DNA of 64,000 nt from a virus: positions 107,626-171,625 of IMG/VR virus record IMGVR_UViG_3300043427_001127; one strand, written 5' to 3'. This document shows positions 3,343 through 7,074 of this stretch, piece after piece. The position numbers were made by a program, and so were the translations under genes. Under the pieces are notes generated by a model. It did not search any database and was not told the DNA's origin. It was given only the letters and a program-made list of their open reading frames with translations. How positions within the stretch are numbered: position 1 is the stretch's first letter; each line of letters starts with the position of its first letter.

Positions 3343-3717
3343 ATGAAAAAACTCTTCAAGCGTTGGAAAAATAGACCAAGAACTCGCCAAGGGTGGATTG
3401 ATTTATATGTTTCATATTTGAAGAGGATACCAGAGAGGCAATACTTTCCAATCTTTGTATTGCTCTCTCTGTATTTCGTGGTTCCGTATAGTGAGTTTGT
3501 AGTCACTGCACTCATACCACTATACTTTCTCTTCGAGAAACAAGTTCGTTGGTTCTTTAGTAAGATTCCAATGCCAGACTATCTGAGAATAGGTGGCTCA
3601 GTTATATTCTTTTTGGTTATGATTGATGACTACCTGTTCTACTTTGCTATCATGGCATTCGCTGCTTGGAGCGCCAAGCAACTGAAGAAAACAAAAGAGT
3701 CCGACGAGGGGGCTTGA
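3343..3717 (+). CDS. Hypothetical membrane protein with three or four helices
   Basis: 124 residues from ATG 3343 (an in-frame GTG lies at 3340). The basic N-terminus MKKLFKRWKNR is followed by hydrophobic segments near residues 34-62 and 76-109 (IFVLLSLYFVV, VIFFLVMIDDYLFYF). It begins seven bases after the SLH-protein stop, so the two are probably one transcript. The stop TGA (3715-3717) lies inside the TTGACA of the next promoter, and the last residues Gly-Ala are encoded by the G-rich promoter block. No family recognised. Confidence 0.6.
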   Translation: MKKLFKRWKNRPRTRQGWIDLYVSYLKRIPERQYFPIFVLLSLYFVVPYSEFVVTALIPLYFLFEKQVRWFFSKIPMPDYLRIGGSVIFFLVMIDDYLFYFAIMAFAAWSAKQLKKTKESDEGA

Positions 3718-3742
3718 CATGCTCCCGACCCTCCTATATAAT
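3708..3742 (+). promoter_or_regulatory. Host-type promoter GGGGGCTTGACA / TATAAT
   Basis: TTGACA 3714-3719, 17-bp spacer, TATAAT 3737-3742. After the -10 box comes ATGAGGGTCAAC, shared exactly with the promoter at 7075-7108. It drives tRNA-Ser(TGA) starting at 3759. Confidence 0.9.
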
Positions 3743-3758
3743 ATGAGGGTCAACAAAT

Positions 3759-3843
3759 GGAAGTGTGGCCGAGTGGTTTAAGGCACTTGTCTTGAAAACA
3801 AGCATGGTGAAAGCCATCGTGGGTTCAAATCCTACCACTTCCG
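3759..3843 (+). tRNA. tRNA-Ser (TGA)
   Basis: Acceptor GGAAGTG/CACTTCC, class II with long variable arm, anticodon stem CTTGT/ACAAG with TGA, discriminator G. It is a second serine tRNA, complementary in codon range to the GCT one at 2348. Confidence 0.95.
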
Positions 3844-3975
3844 CTTGGTACTCGTTAGGCAGATAGCCTAGAAGGAGACCAACTTATCACAAGCGCCTGG
3901 AGATAAACTTGTCTGCTGTGATACGACAGAGGGTAAGTCCCTGTTATATCCTTGAGGTATATCACACTTACTCCA
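3844..3975 (+). ncRNA. Candidate structured RNA between tRNA-Ser and tRNA-Pro
   Basis: The 135-nt gap has no open frame but three consecutive helices. TTGGT (3845-3849) pairs with ACCAA (3878-3882) around TAGGC/GCCTA (3856-3860/3866-3870). TATCACA (3885-3891) pairs with TGTGATA (3917-3923). GGGTAAGT (3931-3938) pairs with ACTTACTC (3966-3973, one GU). It should be co-transcribed with the tRNAs. T4 carries two stable RNAs of unknown role in its tRNA cluster (RNA C and RNA D), and this may be a functional counterpart. Function unknown. Confidence 0.5.
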
Positions 3976-3978
3976 TCA

Positions 3979-4052
3979 CGGGATGTAGCTCAGTTTGGTA
4001 GAGCACTCGCTTTGGGAGCGAGGGGCCGTAGGTTCAAATCCTATCATCCCGA
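3979..4052 (+). tRNA. tRNA-Pro (TGG)
   Basis: Acceptor CGGGATG/CATCCCG, anticodon stem CTCGC/GCGAG with loop TTTGGGA and anticodon TGG, T arm GGTTCAAATCC, discriminator A. Confidence 0.95.
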
Positions 4053-4073
4053 TTCTTCTTAGAGGAGATGTTA

Positions 4074-4346
4074 ATGATTTCGCAACTGGTTATTTACACA
4101 CGAGATAACTGTGAATATTGTCGTAAACTCAAGGTCATCCTTGATAGTTTTACTGTCAAATACACACAGTACAAACTGGATGTTGACTTTGATAGGGAAA
4201 CATTCTATAATGAGTTTGGTGAAGGTTCTACATTTCCTCAGGTGACCCTTGATGGTCACTCTGTTGGGGGTTGTACTGAAACCATTGAATACCTAACCAG
4301 CATTGGTTGCCTACAAGAAGAAAAAGACATGGAGTGTATGGTATGA
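4074..4346 (+). CDS. nrdC: Glutaredoxin
   Basis: 90 residues, the normal size for a monothiol/dithiol glutaredoxin fold. The N-terminal strand VIYT is followed by CEYC (C13, C16), the active-site CxxC. TFPQV supplies the cis-proline and GGCTE the glutathione-binding glycine pair. T4 NrdC serves as reductant for ribonucleotide reductase; that role is likely but no reductase gene lies in this window. ATG 4074 is preferred over 4068 because AGAGGAG (4061-4067) is then correctly spaced. The stop overlaps the next ATG. A second glutaredoxin lies at 15848. Confidence 0.88.
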   Translation: MISQLVIYTRDNCEYCRKLKVILDSFTVKYTQYKLDVDFDRETFYNEFGEGSTFPQVTLDGHSVGGCTETIEYLTSIGCLQEEKDMECMV

Positions 4347-6938: not shown

Positions 6939-7074
6939 CACTAAACTTGCCCTGGTCGGGTGAACCCCCTTCTGGTTTCTTGTTTTCCCATTAAAAAACA
7001 AGTGGTGCGGATGGGACTCTCTCCCGCCCAGTTTCCTGCCTCTGGTCAAAGGGCAGGTGGCGAGCCGAGCAACG
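6939..7074 (+). other. Intergenic region with strong hairpins
   Basis: No plausible gene. CTTGTTTT (6979-6986) pairs with AAAACAAG (6995-7002) over 8 nt, and CCTGCC (7035-7040) with GGCAGG (7052-7057). These may terminate the previous transcript or form a small RNA upstream of the tRNA promoter. Confidence 0.4.

Follow-up and report, generated by a model that had tools for sequence, protein, structure and literature searches.

The gap between tRNA-Ser and tRNA-Pro in the tRNA island of a cyanophage was found to consist of three RNA modules, A, M and B, arranged end to end over 134 nt (3845–3978). A and B are conserved structured RNAs, and the sequence of B gives good support for its homology to the leader RNAs of Abi_2 toxin genes. 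We consider it probable that the gap supplies RNAs cut from the tRNA precursor and that B is an orphan antitoxin-type RNA, which keeps the Abi_2 toxin of the host inactive. Positions refer to the window, i.e., the whole stretch of 64,000 nucleotides analysed, which covers positions 107,626–171,625 of the IMG/VR record IMGVR_UViG_3300043427_001127; this virus record holds 171,625 bases.

All features lie on the + strand. A sigma-70-type promoter-like sequence, read from the letters as TTGACA–17 nt–TATAAT (3714–3742), is a putative promoter 5′ of tRNA-Ser(tga) (3759–3844; called by ARAGORN, 61.6 bits with Rfam RF00005). Module A, a 38-nt bulged hairpin (3845–3882), begins 0 nt from the 3′ end of tRNA-Ser and was assigned by model R2 (65.2 bits) and covariation. 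Module M, a 42-nt hairpin with a 7-bp stem (3883–3924), was assigned from its fold. Module B, a 53-nt bulged hairpin (3925–3977), was assigned by model R1 (77.1 bits), covariation and homology to Abi_2 leaders, and it ends 1 nt before tRNA-Pro(tgg) (3979–4052; ARAGORN, RF00005 71.1 bits). The original prediction had described three helices in a gene-free gap between two tRNAs, and these are real: both tRNAs are called, and no listed ORF of at least 40 aa overlaps 3845–3978. It had also read the gap as a single RNA, which had to be replaced by the three modules, two of which (A and B) are found separately elsewhere. No Rfam 15 family reached its gathering score within 3845–3978, and a search of 3700–4100 with E up to 10 returned, apart from the two tRNAs, only four rows far below threshold. 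A self-cleaving ribozyme or group I intron in the gap was dropped, as the same Rfam search gave it no support. To our knowledge, the gap contains no recognisable catalytic core of either kind.

The comparison with the stable RNAs of T4 that had been proposed for this gap holds for position in the tRNA cluster. T4 RNA C and RNA D (species 1 and 2; 119 and 139 nt) are likewise small RNAs in a tRNA cluster, as in this T4-like setting. The comparison does not extend to a relationship, since in the T4 tRNA region containing rnaC and rnaD (3,701 bases) the best E values were 0.12 for A (R2) and 0.23 for B (R3, a covariance model built from phage copies of B only). The wcaG, manA, glnA and PhotoRC-II RNAs are, like A, M and B, structured RNAs of T4-like cyanophages, but these families differ from the modules and gave no match. 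A wcaG RNA (RF01761, 92.9 bits) is present in the same tRNA island at 6971–7071, just 5′ of tRNA-Met and tRNA-Leu.

Module A folds into a 5-bp outer stem, a bulged A, 3 bp and a 6-bp inner stem, and the 7-bp stem of M is TATCACA/TGTGATA. In module B, the 8-bp stem (GGGTAAGT/ACTTACTC) is followed by a CNC bulge, 2 bp, a 1 × 1 mismatch, the 6-bp stem of the inner hairpin and a loop. By itself, the folding energy of the gap was unremarkable, a weak signal with a z value of −1.61 on the + strand (11/200 shuffles were equally good) and 0.14 on the − strand. The single modules yielded z values of −4.2 (A), −2.0 (M) and −1.1 (B).

A and B are lifted far beyond chance by conservation and covariation, not by energy. 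In alignment A1 of B (53 distinct cores), 95.1% of the cells were paired, and 49 cells carried double changes, as compared with 9.8 ± 2.5 after shuffling. Pairing dropped to 27–61% in slid controls, and six of the seven pairs with double changes fall in the 8-bp helix. Part of the invariance that A1 shows in the inner hairpin comes from the search pattern, which prescribed most of its letters; in the 8-bp helix, the pattern left the 5′ strand and the greater part of the 3′ strand open. Before counting, 13 of the 144 pattern matches with full flanks were removed because they failed a flank test. A more diverse set, A2 (24 of 34 forms chosen from 58 distinct short forms), was 99.1% paired, with 48 double-change cells vs. 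11.5 ± 2.6 shuffled; a further alignment, A5, comprised 23 phage-only forms. For module A, whose search pattern fixed the inner-hairpin letters and left the outer stem free, alignment A3 (37 of 50 distinct forms) was 97.9% paired and contained 67 double-change cells vs. 16.5 ± 3.2 shuffled. The number of pairs in A with any double change was not above the shuffles (6 vs. 5.2; 165/500). The double-change counts of A1 and A3 were each reached by 0/500 shuffles. The covariation suggested earlier as a check on inter-tRNA RNAs was thus found for A and B, and together with the Rfam searches it bears out the expectation that a cyanophage tRNA transcript contains a conserved, structured RNA missing from Rfam 15. 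A pseudoknot in B, in which the loop of a short 5′ hairpin pairs downstream, was rejected: its extra stem had 74% of the cells paired and zero double changes, and the RNAs of the window, Cyanobium and six plasmid leaders each adopt a single nested hairpin with bulges.

In a BLASTN search of 50,697 phage records, the gap matched 12 of them, as separate pieces. The 5′ piece was found in S-SZBM1, DSL-LC02, DSL-LC03 and S-EIVI, and the 3′ piece in S-SZBM1, S-RIM8, S-CREM1, S-SRM01 and S-RIM32. We attribute a match to a Clostridioides phage (E = 5) to chance. Scanning IMG/VR with a pattern for each piece returned at least 120 stretches per piece and placed A and B in over 100 phage contigs; these counts are lower bounds, and the sample is not random. 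Among nine phage records (that of the window and eight named phages), B was not found in two. In relatives, the Ser–Pro gap keeps A and B around a different middle module. The helix of M is predicted from its fold, and its copies are those of the window's record and of three IMG/VR stretches, which hold the exact core, each in the order tRNA–A–M–B–tRNA; the named phages gave no match to M.

The relatives of B outside phages were found at Abi_2 genes. A loose B pattern matched 19 contigs among 84,980 prokaryote genomes, and only three of these pair 8/8 in the main helix; the other 16, with an incompletely paired helix, were taken as chance. The three fully paired contigs are all cyanobacterial (two are titled Cyanobium), and in each of them B stands at the start of an Abi_2 gene. 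Model R1 run over 400 genomes of the host family returned three matches, the same three Abi_2 loci. The protein of one locus (L251) is an Abi_2 protein (PF07751, E = 7.3e-48) and matches PDB 8vz6 (E = 3.6e-26), described in the accessible text of PMC12737573 as AbiF bound to its ncRNA. Of the other two loci, L247 has a shifted Abi_2 frame and L241 keeps the first part of the gene only. The cyanobacterial support for the pairing of B with Abi_2 comes from one lineage with three near-identical loci, set against more than 100 phage copies.

Plasmid relatives of the Cyanobium protein amounted to 227 records, of which 16 were sampled (nine from the top of the list and seven spread over it). Model R3 was run unfiltered over 18 Abi loci, the 16 from plasmids plus L258 and L259. 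The five top-scoring matches all fell in the Abi_2 leader slot (E = 1.6e-15 to 2.8e-5): Cyanobium L258 and L259 (best E = 1.6e-15) and the plasmid loci of P. putida (L296), P. nitroreducens (L294) and S. baltica (L293), with E values of 1.7e-6 to 2.8e-5 for the Pseudomonas and Shewanella plasmids. The sixth match (L308), also in the leader slot, was not significant (E = 0.44). A further 10 Abi_2 loci, including four in which Rfam calls an abiF RNA, gave a best E of 0.19. Three of the 16 plasmid loci thus gave a significant match; when the remainder were inspected by eye, most had a similar leader hairpin, that of L307 was abiF-like, and L299 and L302 showed none.

Comparison of the individual RNAs agreed with this result. 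Between the window B and the P. nitroreducens leader, 14/14 pairs are kept, 11 of them changed on both sides and 0 on one side, and 18/25 unpaired letters are identical. Relative to the Cyanobium leader, 14/14 pairs are kept as well (7 changed on both sides, 0 on one side), and 23/25 unpaired letters are identical. Helices kept by compensation and unpaired letters kept by identity are as expected for a protein-bound RNA. The homology of B to the Abi_2 leader RNAs is well supported by these sequence comparisons. B has the features of the leader type, for which Rfam 15 has no name, i.e., the 8-bp stem, the CNC-type bulge, the 6-bp inner hairpin and the shared unpaired letters; the placement directly 5′ of an Abi_2 gene is not shared by the phage B, which precedes tRNA-Pro in a record without Abi_2. 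In the phage, B counts as an orphan relative rather than a full toxin–antitoxin pair.

The proteins with B-type leaders share the HEPN motif RNRCAH (6/6; L258 and L293–L297, the leaders of L295 and L297 being assigned by position and fold only), which occurs in 0/19 other Abi_2 proteins. In L295 (682–731) and L297 (687–737), the 3′ strand of the leader helix enters a T run before Abi_2, resembling an intrinsic terminator. For module A, nothing below E = 0.3 was found near the plasmid Abi_2 genes, and a single 25-nt plasmid match was at chance level. One partial match (positions 10–30) among 386 genomes of the phylum, in uninformative surroundings, was also taken as chance. The 400 host-family genomes yielded 0 matches to A in a search that contained no known positive, so that this zero alone shows nothing.

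The abiF RNA provides a parallel to B. This RNA family (RF03085) lies directly 5′ of Abi_2 in sampled genomes from the cyanobacterial phylum (L262, L266, L267 and L268), and the accessible text of PMC12373285 describes the abiF RNA of C. difficile (RCd22) as an RNA antitoxin working in cis and in trans. As known from RCd22 and from AbiFr with PbAbiF (PDB 8vz6), the abiF RNA is, like the B family, a short hairpin directly 5′ of Abi_2. The two differ in sequence and bulge pattern, and the Rfam abiF model matches no B-type RNA, be it that of the window, of Cyanobium or of the plasmid leaders. No abiF RNA match was found in the window, at 3700–4100 (E up to 10), or in the whole record of the window. 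S-SZBM1, S-CREM1 and S-SRM01 carry the abiF RNA; its occurrence in S-CREM1 has already been published (PMC9964418, accessible text), and its role there is called unconfirmed in the accessible part of a 2025 review (PMC12197685). In the phage loci, a text pattern picked out 38 abiF-like hairpins, 36 of which end 1–6 nt before a tRNA, the slot of B. Two Abi_2-partner RNA families therefore sit orphaned in the same slot of phage tRNA islands. The Abi_2 gene itself was found neither in the nine phage records searched whole (that of the window and eight named phages) nor among 9,277 ORFs of the phage loci examined, and no relative of the Cyanobium protein was confirmed in viral contigs.

As the phage carries B without the toxin gene, its most likely job is counter-defence. 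The phage would transcribe B within its tRNA operons, and RNase Z, cutting at the 3′ end of the upstream tRNA, and RNase P, cutting at the 5′ end of the downstream tRNA, would release the spacer RNA. By analogy with the abiF RNA (RCd22, AbiFr), bacteria would use B-type RNAs as antitoxins, and the freed phage B would occupy the HEPN ribonuclease toxin Abi_2 of the host and block its RNase activity. Infection would stop the resupply of the host's own RNA and set the toxin free, and the phage B would then hold it inactive. Going by the title of Rince et al. (2000), a reference cited in PMC12737573, a DNA region of phage sk1 reportedly protects phage 712 from AbiF, which fits such a decoy. Phage RNA mimicry has a precedent in the pseudo-ToxI of phage TE, an RNA that imitates the host type III antitoxin RNA and blocks the toxin; it consists of ToxI repeats and arose in laboratory escape mutants (PMC5086642, accessible text). 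Unlike pseudo-ToxI, B is natural, widespread and a single-copy hairpin, belongs with another toxin family, and is tied to tRNA genes. Some phage copies of B precede ordinary coding genes, so B may serve another use.

The placement of the modules was surveyed over 238 loci (2.01 Mb, 1,535 tRNAs). Among the matches listed, 85/127 copies of A start within −2 to +3 nt of a tRNA 3′ end, 60 of them exactly at it, and 86/132 copies of B end 0–8 nt before a tRNA start; the background chance of such adjacency is about 0.2–0.3%. The nearest tRNA was never on the strand opposite to A or B in these matches. TATATAA boxes before B sit 3–4 nt 5′ of its first G in 56/57 cases, a late-promoter-like arrangement, and TAAATA boxes 5 nt 5′ of it in 8/8. 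Judged from this box spacing, transcription of such copies would start at the beginning of B. A also occurs away from tRNAs, in non-tRNA leaders, often followed directly by a B variant with a different inner hairpin, and in some contigs B precedes coding sequences or further modules instead of a tRNA.

Several other arrangements were noted in the loci examined. In L136, L144, L148, L149, L154, L163, L168, L185 and L226, a leader starting with GTTCCCCCTCTCTTT follows a TATAAT-like box and continues with A and directly a B variant whose inner hairpin is long; tRNAs are mostly not close. A lies inside a longer stem between coding genes in L008 (2497–2534), L135 (~2759) and L147 (~5797, minus strand). 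A module of ~85 nt (GTAGGAAGTGCAA...CCTCTC...TCCCTCCTACC) separates B from the next tRNA in L010, L013, L022, L040, L042, L077 and L118. The gaps of other cyanophages contain a tRNA-like element (L001 ~2604–2675, L002 2348–2421, L005 2552–2624 and L007 2569–2640), called tRNA-??? or tRNA-Leu(caa) by ARAGORN, whose T arm looks normal. A borderline tRNA-Sec (47.6 bits, gathering score 47) was seen in the phage tRNA island of L016 (3513–3598).

The adjacency to tRNAs is equally expected of a processing element, and this counts against a decoy role for B. A and B could be trailer and leader elements that direct RNase Z and RNase P or slow them down, or that offer protection to pre-tRNA or transcript ends, in which case the likeness of B to the Abi_2 leaders would reflect an old origin, since reused. 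A has no known toxin partner, and a B fixed 3–5 nt after late-promoter-like boxes could shield transcript 5′ ends. We nevertheless regard this explanation as unlikely: the same slot is occupied by the abiF RNA, a documented antitoxin family, A and B are found away from tRNAs as well, and most tRNAs of the same islands have neither. Moreover, the unpaired letters common to B and the Abi_2 leaders would be superfluous in a generic spacer.

The promoter-like box often found at a fixed spacing before B, and the coding genes behind B in some contigs, would suit a cis-regulatory leader that controls transcription of the tRNA or gene behind it, e.g., as an attenuator or antiterminator. The abiF RNA of C. 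difficile also controls its own gene in cis through a terminator (PMC12373285, accessible text). Such a role is improbable for B, as the genes behind it are dissimilar (many tRNA types) and the B of the window, with a tRNA on either side, occupies an internal spacer instead of a leader position. It is highly improbable that A and B act at the DNA level, as exchange cassettes or homing targets that shuffle phage tRNA genes and whose RNA is functionless, because the compensatory changes in both modules and the strict strand bias indicate selection on RNA. In favour of this reading, the Ser–Pro gap of relatives holds different middle modules, A and B recur at unlike tRNAs, and several copies have an annotated HNH or other endonuclease gene nearby.

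With a decoy against Abi_2 as the preferred role of B, A and M may be the same sort of RNA directed against other effectors. We suggest only tentatively that the islands might be arsenals of anti-defence RNAs, in which A, B, M, the abiF RNAs and other inter-tRNA modules would each address a different RNA-controlled toxin, be swapped as cassettes and be released by the tRNA enzymes. The open-access literature that was searched gave no description of A, B or antitoxin-type RNA decoys in phage tRNA islands. The novelty lies in the RNA family and its tRNA-linked setting; RNA antitoxin mimicry itself was already known. AbiF-type toxins have been proposed as Cas13 ancestors guarded by RNA (PMC12737573, accessible text). 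If the proposed role of B is true, a widespread second family of Abi_2-partner RNAs would make antitoxin mimicry a routine natural strategy, beyond laboratory escape. The job of the RNAs in phage tRNA clusters, and the reason why phages keep such clusters, become testable. Should the islands indeed be RNA arsenals, cyanophages would have a second reason for their large tRNA arrays.
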